Below are positions 2,249 through 27,996 of a stretch of 27,996 bases of DNA, piece by piece (the first letter of the stretch is position 1; each line of letters begins with the position of its first letter). The translations under genes were made by a program, and so were the position numbers. Source of the stretch: a virus; the IMG/VR virus record IMGVR_UViG_3300046656_000193, positions 1 through 27,996 of that record; one strand, written 5' to 3'. The notes beneath the pieces are model-generated. The model saw only the letters and a program-made list of their open reading frames with translations. It did no database searches and was not told where the DNA came from.

Positions 2249-2832
2249 TCACTTTCTGACTAGGAGCTTCTCCCAGTCGTTACGGCACTGCATGAAGTAG
2301 GCTACTTGGGTGTTGGTTGCATCGAGCGCAGAACGGCAGCCGTAGAAAGCAACAATCTCAACAGCGAATCGCGATCGAGTGTCATCAAACGGCCTGCCGC
2401 GTCGGGTTTTCCCAAGTGAGCGACCAGCTCTTGAACCTCCTCCTCGGGTAAATGCGAGAGAGGGTCAACAGCGTATTGATGGTTCGCATAGAGCGCAAAC
2501 AACTGAGTAACAAGTGGAGCGTCAAGCCCGCGAACGTCGTCTAGGCTATCGAAAAACTGATCAGGGAAGTCTGAGTTTTTGCTGTCAGGGTCGACAAACG
2601 CCTTAAAAATGACGTTGCGGCTGATGGCAAGGTCTAGAATCTCAGGGTCGATAAACACGTCTGCGCGACGCTCTTTGACGTACGCCTGAGCGTCCAGTCT
2701 GCACTGGTCCATCTCGGAGCTGGTCAGCGACCTGACTCCGCATTCGCCACCATTGCCACCGGGGAACGTGTAACGAGCGAACGCCCTGCGGCCTGCCAGG
2801 GCGAGCGCGAACAGCTCAGAATTGAACTTCAC
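2249..2832 (-). CDS. tail assembly chaperone, -1 frameshift product (gpG-GT type)
   Basis: Shifting back one base at GGGAAAA, the -1 frame stays open for 52 codons beyond zero-frame codon 142 and ends at TGA, seven bases before the tape-measure start. The join is 2407-2832 plus 2249-2407 and gives 194 residues. The extension looks like real protein (TRRGRPFDDT, RFAVEIVAFYGC, VAYFMQC, NDWEKLLVRK), with the aromatic and Trp residues typical of such tails. In lambda and Mu, the fixed ratio of short to long chaperone is needed for tail assembly. I found no convincing downstream stem-loop here. Confidence 0.8.
2302..2832 (-). CDS. tail assembly chaperone, short (zero-frame) product
   Basis: 176 residues between tube and tape measure, the place of Mu gp41 or lambda gpG. 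These chaperones bind the tape measure during tail assembly and are not part of the virion. The protein is acidic, starts MKFNSELFALALAGRRAFAR and ends LRSMQPTPK before TAG. The gene contains GGGAAAA at plus 2407-2413, in phase as G-GGA-AAA at codons 141-142. This gives a longer -1 frameshift product, listed separately. Most ribosomes are expected to make this short form. Confidence 0.85.
   Translation of the reverse strand: MKFNSELFALALAGRRAFARYTFPGGNGGECGVRSLTSSEMDQCRLDAQAYVKERRADVFIDPEILDLAISRNVIFKAFVDPDSKNSDFPDQFFDSLDDVRGLDAPLVTQLFALYANHQYAVDPLSHLPEEEVQELVAHLGKPDAAGRLMTLDRDSLLRLLLSTAAVLRSMQPTPK
2407..2413 (-). promoter_or_regulatory. slippery heptamer GGGAAAA for -1 frameshift
   Basis: On the coding strand the chaperone reads TTG GGA AAA CCC. 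G-GGA-AAA fits X-XXY-YYZ in the correct phase, and both tRNAs can re-pair in the -1 frame. The position near the 3' end of the chaperone, and the open -1 frame running to just before the tape measure, make programmed frameshifting the simplest reading. Confidence 0.8.
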
Positions 2833-2841
2833 TGGTCAACC

Positions 2842-3210
2842 TCAGGTTGGATCTGGACAGGGGTTTCCTTCGATCAACATCGAGAAGCGACCGTTTGAGC
2901 TCGAAATAGTCACAGGGTCGCCGGACCGAAACGCATCAACGATGAGGTAGGATTGGCCGGGAACGTCCGAGATGATTTCGACCGTCGCGCCAGTCAATTC
3001 GTTGAGAATCTTCATCGTGAATCCGGCCGTAACGAGCCCTTCGAACTTCACGCTCGCTGGCATGAGCTTCGCGTTGCGCTGGTTGATAGAATCGTCTGCA
3101 ACCTCGGCCGTGACCTGGTAGCCGCCAACCGAAAGGTCAACGGAGTCAGGCACAGTCTTGACGAGCTTCGAGTTGATTTTGAGCTTTACGTTGCCGCGTA
3201 CTTTTGCCAT
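2842..3210 (-). CDS. tail tube protein (Mu gpM-like)
   Basis: 122 residues, close to the Mu tube protein length, directly downstream of the sheath gene. It starts MAKVRGNVKLKINSKLVKT and has the short beta-strand pattern of the tail-tube family, including KFEGLVTAGFTMKILNELTG, GATVEIISDVPG, SYLIVDAF and GRFSMLIEG. It should polymerise into the inner tube inside the contractile sheath. The gap to the sheath stop is about 20 bases. Assigned by synteny and strand pattern. Confidence 0.88.
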   Translation of the reverse strand: MAKVRGNVKLKINSKLVKTVPDSVDLSVGGYQVTAEVADDSINQRNAKLMPASVKFEGLVTAGFTMKILNELTGATVEIISDVPGQSYLIVDAFRSGDPVTISSSNGRFSMLIEGNPCPDPT

Positions 3211-3231
3211 TCGTCATCTCCCTCGGCGCGT

Positions 3232-4713
3232 TCAGCGCAAGAAGTCCAAACGCGTCTTGGTGATGTGCAGCCGGTTCACGAGGTCAGGCACGCCGATCAT
3301 GTCGAAGCCATCTTCAGTGCGCTCGACTTCGATGTCTGCTGTGAACTGGTCGGGGTTCTCGATCCAGCCTTGCGAGTATGCCCAGACCGCGCGCGCGCGT
3401 CCCGCGAACTCAGCGCGAATCGTTGCTGGCGTGATGATTGGCAGCCCTGGCGCGTACGATGTGCCATCAGCCGCGTGCATGAAGTCAGGGTACTTCGCGC
3501 CAAGATACGTGCGCCAATCGTAGCGTATTGCCGCGAGCAAGAACGGCACCTGGATGTCGCGATACTTGCTGTCCGCGTTGCCGTTCGCGTCGGTCTGATA
3601 CGTGGTGACCAGGCGCTCGATACGGCACTTTCCGCTGGAGTCGACCGTGTAAGTCGACACGCCTTCGGCAAGCAATTGTTGACGCTCGCTCGCTTCAAAC
3701 TCATCACCAAGAACAGGCGCGAGCATGCAGTCGATTGCGGTGCCACGAAGCGGTTGGCCAGGGTGTGTCTTGAGCGCATGGGCCGCAGCAACCCCAGCCG
3801 CTGCAATCCACGGAGGGGTCGGAGAGAGCCCCGAGCCGAAGTCGGTCGACAACGCGTTGTTGCGCGAGTCGCCGAGCGTCGTGAGCGTGCCGAGCGATCC
3901 GTAAGCGCCGTAAAACTGATGGCACTCGCGCTGCACAACCGGGCCCCAACGACGGGTCATCTCAGTTTCGAACGCGGTCAACGTAGTTGCGTCGGTCCAC
4001 TGGTTGACGAGATGCGAAATGTGCGTATCGCCAATGGCGCCGATCGCAGTGGCAACCGATGGATTAGTCGCGCCTGAGGCAAACGCGGTAATCGCAAGCG
4101 AAACTCCGGTTGGTAGTTGCTCGCCAGTGAAATACGAATGCAAGCACTTGAGCGAGTTGCCTTGCGTGCCATCATTGCGCGCAGTCAGAGTCACGACGCC
4201 AACGAGATTGGTCGCTTGGACCGTGCGATATGGGTCAGCGTTGACGGCTGCGACGATGGCTGCGGCAATCGTCGTAACCGTATCGCCAGCCGCGCACGCA
4301 ACCGAGTATTTACCGCGCAGCGTCGCGCCTACCCAATACGGCGCGATGTACAACGCGATCGTGCCGGCTAGGTTCGAGCTGACGGTAACCGTGATGGTCG
4401 CAGTTGCGGGCACGCCGCTCGCATCGTCTGTCACGCCGATGACGTACATCTCGATGCTCGGGTAGACCGTCTTGGCAACGGCCACCATCTCAGCAGCAGG
4501 AGAACCAACGCCAGCCGCGTACTCCGCGTCAGCCGCGCTGAAGCAGCGGTAAGGCACGCTCGTGGCGATGGCACCGGTAGACAGGCGCGAACCCACAATC
4601 GTCATGCGGCGTGGGAGCTCAGGAGTCGAGGATGTGGCGCGGTTGCCGTTGACCTCGGTGTAGTTGCCGGGCACGAGGTAGTTGCTTGGAATGCCCTGAA
4701 AAACAATCGTCAT
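3232..4713 (-). CDS. contractile tail sheath protein (Mu gpL-like)
   Basis: 493 residues, matching the usual Mu gpL length. The N-terminus reads TIVFQGIPSNYLVPGNYTEV with an early PRRMTIVGSRLSTG, typical of Mu-type sheaths. The C-terminal part includes DYDWRTYLGAKYPDF-like sequence, AEFAGRARAVWAYSQGWIEN and RLHITKTRLDFLR, the strands that link neighbouring sheath subunits. The start overlaps the stop of the upstream DUF2635-like gene as ATGA, so translation is coupled. The sheath makes this a myovirus-type tail. Confidence 0.92.
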   Translation of the reverse strand: MTIVFQGIPSNYLVPGNYTEVNGNRATSSTPELPRRMTIVGSRLSTGAIATSVPYRCFSAADAEYAAGVGSPAAEMVAVAKTVYPSIEMYVIGVTDDASGVPATATITVTVSSNLAGTIALYIAPYWVGATLRGKYSVACAAGDTVTTIAAAIVAAVNADPYRTVQATNLVGVVTLTARNDGTQGNSLKCLHSYFTGEQLPTGVSLAITAFASGATNPSVATAIGAIGDTHISHLVNQWTDATTLTAFETEMTRRWGPVVQRECHQFYGAYGSLGTLTTLGDSRNNALSTDFGSGLSPTPPWIAAAGVAAAHALKTHPGQPLRGTAIDCMLAPVLGDEFEASERQQLLAEGVSTYTVDSSGKCRIERLVTTYQTDANGNADSKYRDIQVPFLLAAIRYDWRTYLGAKYPDFMHAADGTSYAPGLPIITPATIRAEFAGRARAVWAYSQGWIENPDQFTADIEVERTEDGFDMIGVPDLVNRLHITKTRLDFLR

Positions 4714-4925
4714 TGGCTACCGCCCTTGTCTGCAGATTTGACCACTGCACTCGGCTTGTCCGCTCCGAGAAACGTCAAGTCGCCGTGGCGATCCAGGTTG
4801 CGCCAGTAGGGGCCGTCCTCAACGAACTTGCCCTCTTCAGGCAATCGCACTTGGGGAGAACCACCCTTCATCGCGGGGTCGGGAATCATCATGCCGGGCT
4901 TCGGCACTACGAAAACTTTCGGCAT
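4710..4925 (-). CDS. DUF2635-like small tail-associated protein (Mu gp38 position)
   Basis: 71 residues starting MPKVFVVPKPGMMIPDPAMK. The pattern of V-x-P-x-PG near the start, then DP, then LPEEG, then YWRNLDRHGDLT matches the DUF2635 family that lies just before the sheath in Mu-like phages. I chose the internal ATG at 4925 because the family begins with this motif; the longer reading adds a basic stretch (MMLPTKSPWRKRHRSH) unlike the family. The stop overlaps the sheath start (ATGA). The molecular role of this family is not established. Confidence 0.85.
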   Translation of the reverse strand: MPKVFVVPKPGMMIPDPAMKGGSPQVRLPEEGKFVEDGPYWRNLDRHGDLTFLGADKPSAVVKSADKGGSQ

Positions 4926-8247: not shown

Positions 8248-9057
8248 TCATCGTTTGCGATTGTTCAACCCGGCTGACAGCAGACCTTCCGCTGACATAT
8301 CCGCGTTGTTTACAATCCCGCCACCGCCATTCGGTGACTTCTGTCCACCACCAGCCGGGACTGTCCCAGCGGCGAGATAAGTTCGGTCGCTCAAGAATTG
8401 AGCGGCTGCTTCGGCGACTGTCTTGTGTGCGACTCCGCCGTATTCGATGCTGACAACCTTACCGTCGTCATCGAGTTCCATCTTCGCTTCGGTGCGGAAG
8501 ATGCGAATCGCGTCCGCGCGAGCAGACGACAACACCTTGGAGACGTCCAGACCCTCGCCTAGCGCAGCGTCTTCCATCTTCGTGCGATGCTTCTTTTCGG
8601 CCGCTTCAGCGCGCTGTTCAGCGGCCGTAAGCTTCGTGGTCAGCTCATCGCGTTCTTGCTGGATGCGTTTGGCAGCCTTCTCGGCCGCAATCTTCTCACG
8701 CTCATCGGCAGACTTGCCCTTGAGCTCCAGCTCTTCAAGGCGCTTCGTGAGCTCTAACTGAGCATCTTCAGCGGCCTTGTTTTTCGCCTTCAGATCGTCG
8801 TAGTCAGCGAACTTCTTGCGTTCGTCGGCGAGCCTTTGGCCGAGCACTTTGTCGAGGTCTGCTTGCGTGAACGTCTTCTCTGGAGGAGCCGGAGGCTTAT
8901 CGCCACCACCACCACCACCACCACCACCACCACCACCACCACCACCACCACCACCACCACCACCGCCGGGCGGGTCTTCTGGTGAGTAAAGCGGTCCTTG
9001 CGGAGAACGAGACAGAGCACGAGCGAGAAACAGACTCCTGCGGTTCTTGCGATTCAT
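8248..9057 (-). CDS. capsid scaffold protein with 22-Gly tract
   Basis: 269 residues placed just before the capsid gene. After a basic N-terminus comes an unbroken run of 22 glycines at residues 31-52, then FTQADLDKVLGQRLADER. That FTQ-x-D-[LV]-D-x-x-[VL]-x-x-RL-x-x-ER pattern marks many phage scaffolds. Residues about 85-165 are a highly charged coiled coil (AEDAQLELTKRLEELELKG, AEKKHRTKMEDA). A short C-terminal segment after a Gly-rich linker may bind capsid subunits. No protease motif is visible in it. The ribosome site is weak (GGTGA). Confidence 0.8.
   Translation of the reverse strand: MNRKNRRSLFLARALSRSPQGPLYSPEDPPGGGGGGGGGGGGGGGGGGGGGGDKPPAPPEKTFTQADLDKVLGQRLADERKKFADYDDLKAKNKAAEDAQLELTKRLEELELKGKSADEREKIAAEKAAKRIQQERDELTTKLTAAEQRAEAAEKKHRTKMEDAALGEGLDVSKVLSSARADAIRIFRTEAKMELDDDGKVVSIEYGGVAHKTVAEAAAQFLSDRTYLAAGTVPAGGGQKSPNGGGGIVNNADMSAEGLLSAGLNNRKR
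8905..8964 (-). repeat. (GGT)20 trinucleotide microsatellite in scaffold gene
   Basis: Twenty perfect tandem ACC units on the plus strand (GGT on the coding strand), flanked by one GGC on each side, encode the 22-glycine tract. All units use the same codon, unlike the mixed Gly codons elsewhere, which points to replication slippage. Length changes would stay in frame. Confidence 0.95.
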
Positions 9058-15227: not shown

Positions 15228-16151
15228 TCACTTCATTTTCTCTGTTTTGGTGAGTTTCGCCATCTCGTACATGCTATTCACTATGTGGTTCCACACGCGC
15301 TTTTCAGCAGCCTTCAACTCGGCAATGCGGTGATCAGGGTGCTCCTGTTCGTACGCGGAGAGGAGGATCCCGAGCATCTCCAGCCTGTCGTACTCGACCG
15401 TTCCCTCTTCAGGCACCTTTTCAAGCAACGCATCGGCTTCATGCATCGCCGCTGCATGCTCTTCCTCTGTGTGAATGGGCTTGAGTTTCTGGCGTCCGAT
15501 ACCATCGCTGCGCCATTGGTCGCATGCCGCTGCCATCGCCAGCACACCAGCCCAAGCTTGCCACGTTCGTAGGGATTCTAGGCGGCGCAGGCCGGCGTCC
15601 GCGTCGAACATGCGCACGCGATCGAAATGCAGTTCAGTCACACCACTCCTCACGAGGTGGTGCTCTGCGCAAATAACGCCGTGTCCCCAAACGTTTTCGG
15701 CGTACCCGATCGCAAGCGCTAAATCCTCGTAGTCGCGTCGCCACTGATTGCGTCGTTGCACCATCGCCATCGCCACCAGCCCTTGCCACGCCTGCCAGGT
15801 GAGCTGCGATTCGAGCCGACGACAGCGGCGCCACTCCTCGCTCAGGCTGGCCTCGTAGGCGTCGACACGTCGATCAACGATCGCGTAGGCTGCCAATGCG
15901 CACCACGTGTCCCAAACGCGCTGCGACTCGAGACGCCGTGAGTTGCGATAGAAATCGTTGTTGTCTTCTATCGATTTGAACAATAAACGACGCGTTGATT
16001 TCAACTTCTGTCGCATCTCAGCAAGCGCCACAAGCGCGCCCCAGTGCTGCCACAACGCGGCCATGGAGGCGCGGCGGTTGGCTCTCTGAAGCGCTCGCTG
16101 AAGCGAATGCACCTCGGTTATCGAGTCGAACAATCGATCGCCTACGGACAT
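15228..16151 (-). CDS. Trp-repeat protein ending in a HigA-like segment
   Basis: 307 residues. Four copies of a motif RRLES-x3-W-x2-W-x2-L-x-A-x-A start at about 26, 72, 111 and 189 (RRLESQRVWDTWCALAAYA, RRLESQLTWQAWQGLVAMA, RRLESLRTWQAWAGVLAMA). A degenerate fifth lies near 150 (AENVWGHGVICAEHHLVR), giving a 39-residue period. Residues 223-276 (LKPIHTEEEHAAAMHEADAL ... EYDRLEMLGILLSAYEQEHP) match the N-terminal part of HigA-type antitoxins by eye, but the usual DNA-binding domain is absent. AGGAGG touches the ATG directly; GTGGAG ten bases upstream may serve instead. Confidence 0.75.
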   Translation of the reverse strand: MSVGDRLFDSITEVHSLQRALQRANRRASMAALWQHWGALVALAEMRQKLKSTRRLLFKSIEDNNDFYRNSRRLESQRVWDTWCALAAYAIVDRRVDAYEASLSEEWRRCRRLESQLTWQAWQGLVAMAMVQRRNQWRRDYEDLALAIGYAENVWGHGVICAEHHLVRSGVTELHFDRVRMFDADAGLRRLESLRTWQAWAGVLAMAAACDQWRSDGIGRQKLKPIHTEEEHAAAMHEADALLEKVPEEGTVEYDRLEMLGILLSAYEQEHPDHRIAELKAAEKRVWNHIVNSMYEMAKLTKTEKMK

Positions 16152-18710: not shown

Positions 18711-19664
18711 TTACTCCTCGATCTCGTAGATTACGTCTTCGTTGTGAACTGCCACGAGTACTGCTTCGTTGTAACCGCGGGCGCGTGCGTCGACGCCGTC
18801 ACGATACACGACCTTCTTCGCCATCATCGCGTCCACAGCCTCGCCGAGCGTGCACTTGCGGCGAGGCTTGGCGACCGGTGGCGGAGGCGCGAGACGATCG
18901 ATGATACTGGTGAAGCAGGTGCCTTTTAGTGGTTCGTAGAGAGTCCGAATCTTCTCGACGTATGCGCGCTCTTTGGCCGTGAGCTTGTCGACGTACGCAG
19001 CGCCATCAGACTTCGGTGATTTCGTTGTCAGACACTTGCCGAGTTTCTCATCGATCACATCACCGAGTTTCACGGCGTTCCAATCGATCTTCACTCGTTC
19101 GCGCTTCTTGACCGGCTTCTTCACCGCAGATTTCTCAGCGACCGGCGCGTCGCCGAACCACGGAGAGCGCTGCCCGAGCGTCGTCACGACGTCGAGGTAG
19201 AGGTGAGTGCTCGCTCCTTCAAAGCGAAAAGGGTGTGGGCTGTCGAAGGGGTGACCATGTCCGATCTGCGCGCTTTTTCCGAAGTACCGCGACGGGGCGA
19301 GGCCTGTCGTTGCCCCGATCACCTCACCACCGCGCGCCAGGTGCTCGTTGCACTCCGCGGCAGTCGGGCACTTCGGCTCTTTTGTGACGGTGTAGCCGTT
19401 CTTGAAGCCGTCGATCGAGCACAGGGTTTTCGGGGTCGGGTTGCCGATCCGATTACCCGTACCATCTGCCGGCCGCACGAGCAGGACTGCGCTCAACATC
19501 CTGCCAGGGTGAGCGATGACGAAATACGTCCGGTTGCTCTCCCACTGCGTGACCTCGCCACCTGCGCGCAGCACGGCCAGTGCGAGCCAGCCGGAGACTG
19601 ACACGGCCACCTCACCGCCAGCCATCACGATCCGGTACGCCTCTTTGCTGTCGACTTTTCTCAT
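18711..19664 (-). CDS. multi-module hypothetical protein with DUF2829-like and IDW-repeat segments
   Basis: 317 residues. Short modules of the form EA-x4-x-x-GG-x-V recur: SKEAYRIVMAGGEVAVSVSG (6-25), TAAECNEHLARGGEVIG (101-117) and CTLGEAVDAMMAKKVVYRDG (271-290). They are weakly like the DUF2829 type (FGEALEALKAGKKVxRxGW). Residues 191-213 (VKIDWNAVKLGDVIDEKLGK) match the first half of the HTH repeat found at 24367-27996. A Lys-rich linker (180-190) and a Pro-rich linker (259-266) separate modules. Function unknown. Confidence 0.7.
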   Translation of the reverse strand: MRKVDSKEAYRIVMAGGEVAVSVSGWLALAVLRAGGEVTQWESNRTYFVIAHPGRMLSAVLLVRPADGTGNRIGNPTPKTLCSIDGFKNGYTVTKEPKCPTAAECNEHLARGGEVIGATTGLAPSRYFGKSAQIGHGHPFDSPHPFRFEGASTHLYLDVVTTLGQRSPWFGDAPVAEKSAVKKPVKKRERVKIDWNAVKLGDVIDEKLGKCLTTKSPKSDGAAYVDKLTAKERAYVEKIRTLYEPLKGTCFTSIIDRLAPPPPVAKPRRKCTLGEAVDAMMAKKVVYRDGVDARARGYNEAVLVAVHNEDVIYEIEE

Positions 19665-20417: not shown

Positions 20418-20888
20418 TCACTCCTCCGTTTCGATGCCGGCCACTGCTAGCAGGTGCTCGCGTTGCTCGTCTGACATGCCCATCACACTCGGCGCAATGT
20501 ACATGAAGTTGCCGGTGTCAGCCACGTGCGCAAGGCCAGCGGCATGCCCCATCTCATGCATCACTTGGATGAGCTTCGTGCGCATGAGCAACTGGATTTG
20601 CACGCCACGACGATCGCGATGCGTGACTGCGCCTACTGTCATTTTGCCTACTGGCTTCAGCGAATCGACGATGGTCACGTTCGCGACGCCATCGATGTAG
20701 CCGTTGCCCGTGCTCGGCGACACCGTGAACACGTCCTCGCCTACGAGCGCGTTGAGCTGGTCGGCTGCCTCGAAAATCATCTCGGCCTTCGCAGCTGCCT
20801 TGGGGCCAATACCAATCTCCGTGGTCATCGTGCGGTCAACGCAAGCGGTCAACAGGAGAGCGAGACAGATGATGGCGATTCGCGACAT
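20418..20888 (-). CDS. putative lipoprotein metzincin-type zinc protease
   Basis: 156 residues. A lipoprotein signal, MSRIAIICLALLLTAC, has a lipobox ending at Cys16. The catalytic site is HEMGHAAGLAH (111-121), which fits the metzincin HExxHxxGxxH with three zinc-binding His and Glu112. A following NFMYIAP (127-133) could be the Met-turn with M129. The upstream VTIVDSLKPVGKMTVGAVTH region looks like the beta-sheet of a small matrixin/astacin-type domain. It would act in the envelope or outside the cell. It could be a conversion gene affecting host surface or lysis. Fifty-three gene-free bases precede its ATG. Confidence 0.8.
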   Translation of the reverse strand: MSRIAIICLALLLTACVDRTMTTEIGIGPKAAAKAEMIFEAADQLNALVGEDVFTVSPSTGNGYIDGVANVTIVDSLKPVGKMTVGAVTHRDRRGVQIQLLMRTKLIQVMHEMGHAAGLAHVADTGNFMYIAPSVMGMSDEQREHLLAVAGIETEE

Positions 20889-24285: not shown

Positions 24286-24386
24286 TCGATGAACGTTTTG
24301 AACACGCGCTCTGCGACCTCTGGAGAGTCGAATGGTTCCGACAATCGACGATACAAATCAGGATCTTCAATCATCGCGTCTTGCAT
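24270..24386 (-). CDS. 38-residue acidic micro-protein
   Basis: MQDAMIEDPDLYRRLSEPFD then SPEVAERVFKTFIEWRRY, ending TAG. A perfect GGAGG lies seven bases before the ATG, one of the best sites in this region. The start lies 20 bases inside the end of the upstream repeat gene. It is helical and amphipathic. Function unknown. Confidence 0.6.
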   Translation of the reverse strand: MQDAMIEDPDLYRRLSEPFDSPEVAERVFKTFIEWRRY

Positions 24387-24795
24387 TTTCGACCTCCAGC
24401 TTCGTTTCGTTAGCATGTTTTGCGGCCAAAATCATCGTCTTTCGATAGGACATAATGCTGCGTTTGCCGCGTTGCTCGCGCACTGTGGAGATGGCCACTC
24501 CATGTCGCTTGGCGATGTTCGCATCCGTGTCAGTACCGAGCCCTCCGTTGTCCCATTCGATCTGTACACGACTACACGCCACTCCAATGCGCAGCCGGTT
24601 TTGTGTCACTCGCTCACGACTGCAGCCAAGGTCAGCAGCCACCGCATCGTCTGTGTGCACGCCTAAACCTGGCACCGAGTGCCAATCGATATAGCGGCGG
24701 TCAGCGCGTGCACGCGGTTTACTGACTCGTGTCGGTTCGCTGGTTTCTGGCGGCATTGGCGCGCGCCGAGAAGGACTGAGTCTTACGTTTTTCAT
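24367..24795 (-). CDS. HTH-repeat protein, 2 units
   Basis: 142 residues starting MKNVRLSPSRRAPMPPETSE at ATG 24795 (ATGA with the upstream gene). After a Pro/Arg-rich, probably disordered, N-terminus come two repeat units at about 36 (IDWHSVPGLGVHTDDAVAAD) and 79 (IEWDNGGLGTDTDANIAKRH), each followed by a recognition-helix-like part (GCSRERVTQNRLRIGV; GVAISTVREQRGKRSI). A charged tail follows. Likely DNA-binding; last member of the array. Confidence 0.75.
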   Translation of the reverse strand: MKNVRLSPSRRAPMPPETSEPTRVSKPRARADRRYIDWHSVPGLGVHTDDAVAADLGCSRERVTQNRLRIGVACSRVQIEWDNGGLGTDTDANIAKRHGVAISTVREQRGKRSIMSYRKTMILAAKHANETKLEVENARRDD

Positions 24796-25352
24796 CGGGC
24801 CACCACAAACGGTTTGATTCCTAGCTTGCGGCGAGCACGGCCTATTCTCGACGCAGACACGCCGAGCTCGTTTGCAATCTCTGGATCTGGCTTGAGGCCG
24901 AGTGGAATCGTTGAGTAGTCGATATTCAAACACACGCTCTTCGGCGCAAACGCCGGGACACCCATCCGTCGGCGCACCATCGAGACCAGCGATCTATGAC
25001 ATCCGACCTCAACCGAAACATCGAAGTCGGAGCGCGTACCTAGACCAACACTCGACCAGTCAACGTCATCCAAAAGCGCGCAAAACGCCGCTATACCGAG
25101 CATCTTACGCGCACGCCATACGGTCGTTTCGCTCACCCCAATACGCTTGGCTATCGCGCCGTCTGTACGCCTTCCGAGTGGCTGCGTTGACCAGTCAATC
25201 TTGCTCGCTTCTTTGAATGACTTGATGCCTCTGATTTGCCTGTGCCATCGAATGGTATCTTTGTGGCGGCGCAGCAACTTGCCAAGCGCTGCGTCGGTCA
25301 TTTCTCCGAGTGGCACCGCGTTCCAATCGATATTCGTCCGCGCGCGCTTCAT
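24792..25352 (-). CDS. HTH-repeat protein, 4 units
   Basis: 186 residues starting MKRARTNIDWNAVPLGEMTD (ATG 25352, ATGA overlap). Units begin at 8, 52, 97 and 144. The best are IDWSTQPLGRRTDGAIAKRI with GVSETTVWRARKMLGI, and IDYSTIPLGLKPDPEIANEL with GVSASRIGRARRKLGI. The whole protein is repeats, with no other domain. Helix-loop-helix with a basic third helix suggests each unit is an HTH, making this a tandem DNA-binding protein. Spacings of 44-47 residues are regular. Confidence 0.8.
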   Translation of the reverse strand: MKRARTNIDWNAVPLGEMTDAALGKLLRRHKDTIRWHRQIRGIKSFKEASKIDWSTQPLGRRTDGAIAKRIGVSETTVWRARKMLGIAAFCALLDDVDWSSVGLGTRSDFDVSVEVGCHRSLVSMVRRRMGVPAFAPKSVCLNIDYSTIPLGLKPDPEIANELGVSASRIGRARRKLGIKPFVVAR

Positions 25353-26191
25353 GGCTGCGCCCTCATCGGCGGAATGCCGAGCTCTTGACGGCGGCGCCAT
25401 ATCGTCGACTCAGCGACACCGTGCTCGGCTGCCAGGACGTAGTCGAACTCTTTGCCGAGTCTGGCCAAGTCGACTGGTTTTCTGCGCTGGCGACGGCCGA
25501 TCGCCTTCACACGGCGTGCTGCGACTTTGCGGGTTGTGGTTTCGAGAAGCGCTGCCACCACCGCGTCAGAGTAAGACTGGCACAACTCCATAGCGCGCTC
25601 CCAGTCGACTTGCGGCGACTGCGGTTTGATCCCGGCCTTGCAGCGGTGGTACGAAATCGCGCCACGCTTGCAGCCGAGCTCTTCGGCCAACTCTGCGTTC
25701 GTCTTCTTCGCGTGCAAATCGATGGCGCTCCAATCGATTGAGTACCGCGCATGGGCCGCACGGGCTGGCGCGATGCCGAGCCGTTTGCGAAGCTTGCGTA
25801 TCGTCTGCTTCGTGCGGCCTGTCAGAGCGCCAACTTCGCCGTCTGGTTTTACACCGATGCCCATCGCTACCCAATCGATTTCAGCAGGCACAAACGCTTT
25901 GATGCCACGTCTCGCTCGGGCGTTGTGCACGACTGAACGCGCGCAGCCGAGGCGGTCCGCTATCACGCTGTCTGGCTCTTTGCCGAGTGGTTCTTTGGAC
26001 CAATCGTATCGGAACCGTGGCTCTGGCTTTGGGCGCTGTTTTGTGGACTTCGCGCGGCCAGAAGACGGCAGGCCGCGGTACATGCGCGCGCGCTCCACTT
26101 GGTACTTCGAATGGCCAGTTTCAGCGGCTATCACTCGATCGGACTTGGCGCCGAGCGCGATGGAGTCCCAATACTTGTCGGACGGCTGCAT
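25349..26191 (-). CDS. HTH-repeat protein, 6 units
   Basis: 280 residues, the longest member of the array. Units begin at about 7, 62, 105, 152, 195 and 240. Clear copies are YDWSKEPLGKEPDSVIADRL with GCARSVVHNARARRGI, and IDWSAIDLHAKKTNAELAEE with GCKRGAISYHRCKAGI. The first and second are separated by a basic Pro-rich linker (STKQRPKPEPRFR). The fifth and sixth are degenerate (VDWERAMELCQSYSDAVVAA; VDLARLGKEFDYVLAAEHGV). No catalytic motif. The ATG follows the upstream stop by two bases. Confidence 0.8.
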   Translation of the reverse strand: MQPSDKYWDSIALGAKSDRVIAAETGHSKYQVERARMYRGLPSSGRAKSTKQRPKPEPRFRYDWSKEPLGKEPDSVIADRLGCARSVVHNARARRGIKAFVPAEIDWVAMGIGVKPDGEVGALTGRTKQTIRKLRKRLGIAPARAAHARYSIDWSAIDLHAKKTNAELAEELGCKRGAISYHRCKAGIKPQSPQVDWERAMELCQSYSDAVVAALLETTTRKVAARRVKAIGRRQRRKPVDLARLGKEFDYVLAAEHGVAESTIWRRRQELGIPPMRAQP

Positions 26192-26193
26192 GG

Positions 26194-26862
26194 CTACTTA
26201 CCCGACGCTTTGATTGACGCCGTGAACGAGGGGATGCCTCGACGCGTCCGAGCCTCTCGCACGACCGATTCACTACAGCCACGCTCCTTGGCAATCGTCG
26301 TGTCGTAACGTTGACCGAGGTCTACCAGATCCCAATCAATGCCTTTGATGCTGCTTGGCACGCAAGGAGCTATACCGAGCGCCAAGCGGTGCATCCTGAC
26401 AGTCGATTTTCTGCAGCCGAGTTCAGCCGCCAAAGCTCTGTCTGTCCTCTTGCCGAGATCCACTTTCGACCAGTCGAGCGCGCGAATAGGCTCTTTGTAA
26501 GGTTCTATTCCGAGCTTGCGTCTGTGTTCTCTTACAGTTTCTTTTTTCATGCCGAATCGCTCTGCGATGGCGCCATCCGATTCAGTGCCTAGCCCGCATG
26601 CGTGCCAGTCTACCGTCTGCTTTGACGCTGCATACGGAGCAATCCCGCGCGCGCGCCTGGCCTTCCCGACTGCGTGCTTTGAGCATCCAGCTTCGGACGC
26701 AATCGTCTCGTCGCTTCTCGTGCCGAGGCCATATGGAGTCCAATCAAAGCCAGGTTTGATTTGGACGAACCGCATTTTTTGCTGCTCAACCTCGCGCTTG
26801 AGAACTTCAAGAAACGGATCTTTCTTTCGCGCGAGAGCGACTAACGGATGCATGTCATTCAC
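26194..26862 (-). CDS. HTH-repeat protein, 4 units
   Basis: 222 residues from a GTG at 26862, chosen because AGGAG lies seven bases before it and it sits at the upstream gene's end. ATG at 26853 or 26889 are alternatives. A charged helical N-terminus (PFLEVLKREVEQQKMRFVQI) precedes four very regular units at 39, 84, 129 and 175, for example VDWHACGLGTESDGAIAERF with GMKKETVREHRRKLGI, and LDWSKVDLGKRTDRALAAEL with GCRKSTVRMHRLALGI. The spacing is 45-46 residues. Confidence 0.8.
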   Translation of the reverse strand: MNDMHPLVALARKKDPFLEVLKREVEQQKMRFVQIKPGFDWTPYGLGTRSDETIASEAGCSKHAVGKARRARGIAPYAASKQTVDWHACGLGTESDGAIAERFGMKKETVREHRRKLGIEPYKEPIRALDWSKVDLGKRTDRALAAELGCRKSTVRMHRLALGIAPCVPSSIKGIDWDLVDLGQRYDTTIAKERGCSESVVREARTRRGIPSFTASIKASGK

Positions 26863-27169
26863 TGGTCTGCTCCTTTTTGTGGTGGCCATGAGCTTTGATT
26901 CCAAGCGCCTTGCGGGCGCTGTAAACAGTTGAATTCGAGCAACGCAGCAACACTGCCAATTGCAAATCTGGCATCTCGCCAAGAGGCTGTTTATGCCAAT
27001 CGATCAGCGTAGGCCTGCGCGGCGTGCACTTCGGAGCGACGCCAAGCGATTCTCGAAAACGCTTCACGAACGCGCGGTCTACGCCGTGTAGACGAGCGCA
27101 AGCGCTGTCGGACATCTGCCCTACGTCGCGACGTAGGTTGGCCATTACGAATTTGACAGCGGCTCTCAC
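26855..27169 (-). CDS. HTH-repeat protein, 2 units
   Basis: 104 residues starting MRAAVKFVMANLRRDVGQMS (ATG overlaps the upstream stop). The first unit is diverged (about 12-46: VGQMSDSACARLHGVDRAFV then KRFRESLGV), and the second is typical (56-95: IDWHKQPLGEMPDLQLAVLL with RCSNSTVYSARKALGI). The tail is His/Lys-rich. Probably a small DNA-binding protein. Confidence 0.75.
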   Translation of the reverse strand: MRAAVKFVMANLRRDVGQMSDSACARLHGVDRAFVKRFRESLGVAPKCTPRRPTLIDWHKQPLGEMPDLQLAVLLRCSNSTVYSARKALGIKAHGHHKKEQTSE

Positions 27170-27321
27170 AGCTTGAATTCCTCTTCGTACGGGTCAATCT
27201 CGCGGTCGGCGCGTTTGGCAGCTTGGACCAGCATCAACGCTCCGATGCCAATGGTCGCGCCTGAACTCAGCACGACCCAAAACCAGAACGCCGAATCGAT
27301 AACACGGAACAAACAGGTCAT
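27166..27321 (-). CDS. 51-residue single-pass membrane protein
   Basis: Starts MTCLFRVIDSAFWFWVVLSS at ATG 27321, which overlaps the upstream stop by ATGA; the longer frame is a shadow. One hydrophobic segment (about 11-33, AFWFWVVLSSGATIGIGALM), then an acidic cytoplasmic-type tail (REIDPYEEEFKL). It lies inside the HTH-repeat operon. Function unknown. Confidence 0.6.
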   Translation of the reverse strand: MTCLFRVIDSAFWFWVVLSSGATIGIGALMLVQAAKRADREIDPYEEEFKL

Positions 27322-27593
27322 GGCCTGACCTTTCGTTTCTTGAGCCTTGCGGCGTTGGCCTTGCCGACTTCGCAGCGCTTGCATGCGTCTTCGCGCGCGG
27401 CTTCGTGGCGAGCGGCGCATTGCTTGACCGCAAGACGGCAGCGGTAAGGTTTGCAGTCTTGGACTGAGACATCTACACCGAGACGAGACACGTTGAATTC
27501 ATCACCTGGCACAGATGCCAGGTTGCGAAGTTTGGCATCTTCCAGCCGCTGACTCGCGGCGATTTCTCGCACTGATTTCCAGAAATCGCTCAT
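27318..27593 (-). CDS. Cys-rich hypothetical protein
   Basis: 91 residues starting MSDFWKSVREIAASQRLEDA at ATG 27593 (ATGA overlap). The second half holds C-x4-C-x6-C ... H ... C-x2-C (DCKPYRCRLAVKQCAARHE and DACKRCEVGKA), a plausible zinc site, and ends in a strongly basic tail (ARLKKRKVRP). It may bind nucleic acid. Family not recognised. Confidence 0.6.
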   Translation of the reverse strand: MSDFWKSVREIAASQRLEDAKLRNLASVPGDEFNVSRLGVDVSVQDCKPYRCRLAVKQCAARHEAAREDACKRCEVGKANAARLKKRKVRP

Positions 27594-27996
27594 GCGTGAA
27601 CTTCTCTCTTTCGCGGCGGCGGTGGGCATTGTTTACACGTTACGGCAGACGTCGAGTGGCCCGAGTGACATGGCTCGCCGTGACCGCATCGATGGCCGAA
27701 TAGGCCGAACCAAACATCTTTCGCGTGCGTCACTGGAGCTGTCTGGCGGCACTCGCCGCACTTCTTGTAGACGATCGCGGCTACAGGCTTCGGCGCAAGG
27801 ATACGTGGCGTTTTTGGTGACGCCAGCGCGGTCGCTTTTCTTTTGACGCGCTCCATTTTAGCGATCGCAGCAATGCGATCTGTCGGCGCGCGAGGCAGCT
27901 CGAACATCGGAATTCGCATCTTGCGGCGCATCGCTGACACGGTAGACGAGTAGCATCCGACCATGCGCGCGATGTCCGAATCTGGCATTTCGCCGA
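27590..27996 (-). CDS. HTH-repeat plus zinc-ribbon protein, partial (N-terminus outside window)
   Basis: The open frame runs off the right edge: codons for GE precede an ATG at 27988, so the phrase GEMPDSDIARMVGCYSSTVS is the repeat signature and the gene starts outside. After that unit ends (AMRRKMRIPMFEL) comes a basic linker, then KKCGECRQTAP, HRCGHGEPCHSGH and VTCKQC, a Cys/His cluster fitting a zinc ribbon. Repeat and ribbon in one protein is not seen in the other members here. Confidence 0.75.
   Translation of the reverse strand, partial: GEMPDSDIARMVGCYSSTVSAMRRKMRIPMFELPRAPTDRIAAIAKMERVKRKATALASPKTPRILAPKPVAAIVYKKCGECRQTAPVTHAKDVWFGLFGHRCGHGEPCHSGHSTSAVTCKQCPPPPRKREVHA

Follow-up and report, generated by a model that had tools for sequence, protein, structure and literature searches.

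We analysed the entire IMG/VR virus record IMGVR_UViG_3300046656_000193 (27,996 bases, hereafter the window) and found in its final 3.6 kb (24367-27996, minus strand) six genes, G1 to G6, that carry copies of one short protein unit (Table 1). The unit comprises 39 residues, is repeated every ~43-47 residues and follows the consensus [IV]DW-x4-LG-x3-D-x2-IA-x3-G-x5-V-x3-R-x3-GI. From G1 to G6 the genes hold 1, 2, 4, 6, 4 and 2 units, the count for G1 being a minimum at the contig end. So that no gene was scored with a profile built from itself, we made six versions of the unit profile, omitting the gene to be tested from each. With these leave-one-gene-out profiles 18 units score 23-54 bits, whereas the open reading frames (ORFs) of the window reach at most 11.7 bits once their residues are shuffled (50 sets of all ORFs). 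The fifth unit of G4 is degenerate (-0.9 bits) and is recognised only by its position and residual residues. A first-pass annotation of this DNA had claimed about 19 units in the same series of copy numbers on one strand; our 18 clear units and one degenerate unit reproduce both counts. The regular spacing of 43-47 residues that it described applies to G3 (steps of 45, 45 and 46 residues) and G5 (44, 45 and 47), but not to the first step of G4, which is 56 residues long. Elsewhere in the window, a 317-aa ORF (18711-19664, minus strand) contains a segment, KIDWNAVKLGDVIDEKLGK, that resembles the first half of the unit (compare IDWNAVPLGEMTDAALGK in the first unit of G5); it scores just 7.3 bits and is possibly a remnant or a chance match.

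Table 1. Unit-bearing genes and the short ORFs between them (scores from leave-one-gene-out profiles; aa, amino acids)
Feature	Coordinates	Strand	Units	Score (bits)	Remarks
G1	27590..27996	-	27908-27994	25.5	5'-truncated at contig end; one unit
G1b	27318..27593	-	none		short Cys-containing ORF; ATGA-coupled to G1
G1c	27166..27321	-	none		short ORF with one hydrophobic segment; ATGA/GTGA coupled
G2	26855..27169	-	27032-27127; 26888-27004	23.0, 51.4	104 aa
G3	26194..26889	-	26632-26748; 26497-26613; 26362-26478; 26224-26340	47-54 per unit	231 aa; alternative ATG start 26853; 4 units
G4	25349..26191	-	26060-26176; 25892-26008; 25763-25879; 25619-25738; ~25493-25609 (degenerate); ~25364-25480	26.9, 52.2, 36.8, 28.8, 32.0; fifth undetected	280 aa; 6 units
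G5	24792..25352	-	25215-25331; 25083-25199; 24948-25064; 24807-24923	40-53	186 aa; 4 units; ATGA-coupled to G4; structure predicted
G6	24367..24795	-	24571-24690; 24445-24561	38.7, 31.3	142 aa; ATGA-coupled to G5

The picture of six genes forming one array holds for the strand, which all of them share, but G1 and G2 are parted by two short genes without units. At most joins the stop and the next start overlap or nearly do so: the ATGA coupling noted earlier between several members is present at G4/G5 and G5/G6, while G2/G3 is joined by TGAATGA and G3/G4 by TAGCCATG. Given this translational coupling, the proteins would be made together. One might argue that one or a few longer array genes have been split by assembly indels, since single genes with more units do exist elsewhere (up to 8 units in viral ORFs and 10 in one Paraburkholderia gene), and the unit-to-unit distances across the G3/G4 and G4/G5 borders (~164 and ~149 bases) are one base off an in-frame linker. 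However, such an artefact is very improbable because the joins are clean stop-start couplings; in addition, purine-rich stretches lie upstream of several starts, every protein has its start or its end close to a unit boundary, and several independent errors would be required. All six proteins are strongly basic (isoelectric point ~10 or more), and the C-terminal part of G1 is rich in cysteine (7 Cys). As anticipated by the first-pass annotation, they contain few other domains: besides noise below the cut-off, Pfam yields HTH (helix-turn-helix) families only, with no catalytic domain among them.

The units are ~38% identical to each other, and this value is equal within and between genes. At codon positions 1, 2 and 3, respectively, 49, 58 and 32% of unit comparisons are identical; taken together, these figures indicate that the units are old and have been kept by selection at the protein level. 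A recent tandem duplication as the source of the units is rejected on the ground of these equal identities. Structure prediction, proposed earlier as a check, was carried out with AlphaFold2 for G5 with 21 relatives and gave HTH units at a mean predicted local distance difference test score (pLDDT) of 87, each with a one-turn N-terminal helix followed by the HTH pair. When single units were compared with solved structures by VIA-align, they matched the HTH domains of FapR (Z 5.9), sigma-54, the Mos1 transposase and gamma-delta resolvase (on DNA, Z 4.7, root-mean-square deviation (rmsd) 1.7 over 37 residues), several of these in DNA complexes. The earlier reading of the unit as a DNA-binding HTH module is thus borne out by the predicted fold and by the nature of its matches, although the term 'tri-helical' is barely right, the first helix being 3 residues long. 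The modest Z-scores (up to 5.9) mark the predicted unit as a common small fold and point to no specific function. Foldseek found nothing significant with the whole G5 model, as expected for loosely linked small units, and sequence searches of solved structures gave short HTH-motif matches only. HTH_23 (PF13384; homeodomain-like HTH superfamily) of Pfam is matched by G5 (30.0 bits) and G4 (31.4 bits) above its cut-off of 24.6, the other genes remaining below it; no model specific for the unit exists in Pfam or NCBIfam.

A profile search of the unit against phage sequences, likewise proposed at the outset, showed that it is widespread in phages, plasmids and bacteria. We found it in more than 130 viral loci and also in bacterial genomes and Pseudomonas plasmids; each of the viral loci examined (24 in first scans, at least 105 in a second and 7 more in a third) covers a few kb. 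In Vibrio phages the unit makes up the C-terminal half of GIY-YIG homing endonucleases adjoining terminase genes (GIY-YIG E 3e-10 in locus L011). In other phages (L029) it flanks a domain that matches the catalytic domain of I-Bth0305I (probability 0.99, rmsd 3.0 over 83 columns); the model of this protein is of low overall confidence, with scores of ~75-90 in the I-Bth0305I-like region. One context places the unit beside a sub-threshold HNH_3 domain, and further copies are found inside inteins interrupting DNA polymerase A (PolA). Two of these family A polymerase inteins (L064, 3-3329; L075, 1-1746) have three units between their splicing blocks, with no nuclease domain reported. Locus L143 encodes a ResIII-type helicase (2423-4756) that carries five units. 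It is flanked by portal and head-morphogenesis genes, which share ~32-34% identity with their counterparts in the window phage, and L143 is the sole array-bearing locus that has both genes in common with this phage.

These relatives raise the question whether the cluster consists of nuclease-free parts of a homing system, which might direct a nuclease from another part of the incomplete genome, or hide target sites from the related homing endonucleases of competing phages. The fusions of the same unit to GIY-YIG, I-Bth0305I-type and probably HNH nucleases, its presence in PolA inteins, and the five-unit helicase lying between genes shared with the window phage all speak for this possibility. 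Phage homing endonucleases such as I-TevI, I-HmuI and I-Bth0305I carry nuclease-associated modular DNA-binding regions (NUMODs), i.e. serial modules, and recognise long DNA targets of up to ~30 bp (PMC3943268); our unit resembles NUMODs in being a small serial module, and other phages have it joined to nuclease domains of the GIY-YIG and I-Bth0305I types. Unlike NUMOD homing endonucleases, however, the six window proteins match neither a nuclease domain (GIY-YIG, HNH, EDxHD or LAGLIDADG) nor a NUMOD profile in Pfam at E up to 10, and they hold many units of the same type per protein, with six proteins in one cluster. A nuclease domain is also absent from the 20 other window proteins scanned with PHROGs. 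Moreover, six genes with 18 well-preserved units are unlike decaying relics, and the standalone arrays found elsewhere occupy one fixed place, as is more readily expected of a resident than of a mobile gene. We regard a role of the cluster as nuclease-free homing-system parts as unlikely.

Standalone, nuclease-free arrays of 3-10 units occur in Pseudomonas plasmids (including pQBR103), Paraburkholderia, Verrucomicrobia and many phages, and are labelled as hypothetical proteins where annotated. In one of the plasmids, CP093282.1 of Pseudomonas silvicola (L015; 84,880 bases), the unit matches are repeated at a distance of exactly 42,440 bases, and the record thus resembles a head-to-tail dimer. 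An array gene lies in a similar gene block in loci L070, L071, L083, L087, L092, L106 and L146, the order in the best-covered loci being DnaB-like helicase, a small gene (phrog_8117 in the loci tested), array, terminase small subunit, terminase large subunit and portal. This fixed place suggests, on the basis of gene order, a resident function near the early-late boundary. The standalone array of L071 matches PHROG 323 (transcriptional regulator, D5-like) at 5.6e-16, and the D5 protein of phage T5, whose gene lies beside a DnaB-like gene, is described in its record as DNA-binding and necessary for replication and late transcription. As the unit is missing from T5 D5, there is between it and the standalone arrays a likeness of role, which is no proof of kinship.

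Whereas the standalone arrays of plasmids, bacteria and uncultured phages share the unit and the absence of a nuclease with the window cluster, they are single or scattered genes. Among the viral loci examined, only 6 contain more than one unit-bearing ORF, and at most two such ORFs are present in each. Six adjacent array genes lie well outside this observed clustering, though the loci are short and the clustering figure is a lower bound. The earlier statement that no comparable system is known has to be narrowed accordingly: phages, plasmids and bacteria commonly have proteins built from this unit, but six array genes together are unusual. A description of the unit was not found among tandem HTH arrays in the open-licence literature. 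For the expansion of a DNA-binding family there is a precedent in Bacillus phage G, which has ~35 zinc-ribbon copies as well as Myb-type HTH factors (PMC7824862). Both phages contain multiplied small DNA-binding genes, but the domain in phage G is a different one, and adjacent multi-unit arrays are absent from it as far as PMC7824862 describes. What is known, then, is a widespread module shared with homing endonucleases, and what is unusual is the presence of six array genes side by side.

According to PHROGs scans, the left half of the record encodes on the minus strand the structural module of a contractile-tailed phage (tape measure, tail sheath, neck protein, major head protein, scaffold, portal and terminase), and the array genes lie upstream of this module on the same strand. 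A scan of the window for tRNA genes found none, and promoter and terminator scans gave no more matches than expected by chance. Single-protein searches of viral contigs (with G3 and G7) revealed no close relatives of the phage; the closest terminase is 36% identical and lies on a 16.6-kb contig, of which a 12.8-kb part (L054) is without units. Three further features of the window may be mentioned: a 307-aa protein (15228-16151, minus strand) in which a sequence of the type RRLES..W..W..L.A.A...R is repeated imperfectly, three copies in all, a CCA trinucleotide repeated perfectly over 20.7 copies within the scaffold protein gene (8903-8964), and a small lipoprotein-like ORF (20418-20888, minus strand) with the zinc-metalloprotease-type motif HEMGHAAGLAH.

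We favour, at about even confidence, the explanation that the cluster encodes at least six DNA-binding proteins that lack a nuclease, are translated together and read sequence, and that most likely regulate the expression of phage genes. DNA binding by the six proteins is very likely, as predicted from their modelled fold, their charge and their nuclease-fused relatives. For a regulatory role the chances appear roughly balanced; it is suggested by the absence of catalytic domains, by co-translation, by the location of the cluster upstream of the structural module and by the standalone arrays with their shared gene order. Each unit would begin with a turn that holds the conserved Trp; next comes a short helix with the invariant LG...D..IA core at its end, and a Gly turn leads on to the recognition helix, which bears an invariant Arg and a GI end cap. 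Serial units would be expected to place successive recognition helices along the major groove, and a protein with n units would then contact an extended duplex site; extended binding sites are what we consider most likely. By occupying extended operator or promoter sites, the proteins would regulate transcription of the phage (or the host) around the time when the late structural genes, located downstream on this strand, are switched on. The unit is the one that serves homing endonucleases of phages for site targeting, the nuclease part being missing here.

Several results weigh against the regulator explanation. The G5 model has a predicted template modelling score (pTM) of 0.52, from which it follows that the relative placement of the units is uncertain and that they act as separate beads. 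No repeated target-like sites were found in the four intergenic gaps. The matches of G3 and G4 to PHROG 323 are weak (E 1e-4 and 0.0014) and cover part of the profile, and T5 D5 as a true homologue had to be rejected at the unit level (best full-sequence unit-profile score 6.2 bits). Lastly, no close relative of the phage, in which the cluster might be conserved, turned up in the searches.

The way in which the units vary bears on two further explanations. Across the family, positions 24, 25 and 28 of the recognition helix are among the four most variable columns; in the window units these helix positions are variable, too, yet not distinct from other surface positions. The proteins might coat DNA in general, with basic arrays of low preference compacting the phage DNA or shielding it from host nucleases. 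Their strongly basic nature is in line with such a role, and contact positions that vary between units are compatible with low specificity, but a sequence preference would be expected of those relatives in which the unit is part of a homing endonuclease, and the high variability of positions 24, 25 and 28 across the family suggests that different bases are read. We judge DNA coating or counter-defence to be quite unlikely. Alternatively, as the first-pass annotation had suggested along with a function as decoys, the genes could form a modular reading set, in which each unit reads a few bases, the proteins with 2, 4 and 6 units recognise sites whose length is in proportion, and the members compete. 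Differing unit counts among neighbouring co-translated genes and the family-wide variability of the recognition helix would fit this idea. However, the window units vary all over their surface and not at contact positions alone, and no candidate sites were found in the four intergenic gaps. Readers of the transcription activator-like effector (TALE) type, where one repeat reads one base, have near-identical repeats that differ in a few specificity residues; the window units are unlike them, being ~38% identical and variable over their whole surface. A set of competing modular readers is quite unlikely.

Apart from the regulator explanation, the locus is of interest for the unit itself, which has no Pfam or NCBIfam model of its own, yet recurs as a targeting module in inteins, helicases and several mutually unrelated nuclease families, and also in nuclease-free arrays of phages and plasmids. 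It is improbable, though conceivable, that the cluster is a co-translated set of DNA readers in which unit number determines site length and the members cooperate as a programmable regulatory or site-masking system; if true, such a reader set would go back to the module with which homing endonucleases find their sites, and could be put to use again in engineered targeting. Should the units read DNA serially, they would represent a compact bacterial alternative to zinc-finger and TAL arrays, and the cluster, with 1-6 units per protein in one phage, would be a natural length series. The cluster also connects the targeting modules of homing endonucleases with what may be the regulation of phage genes.

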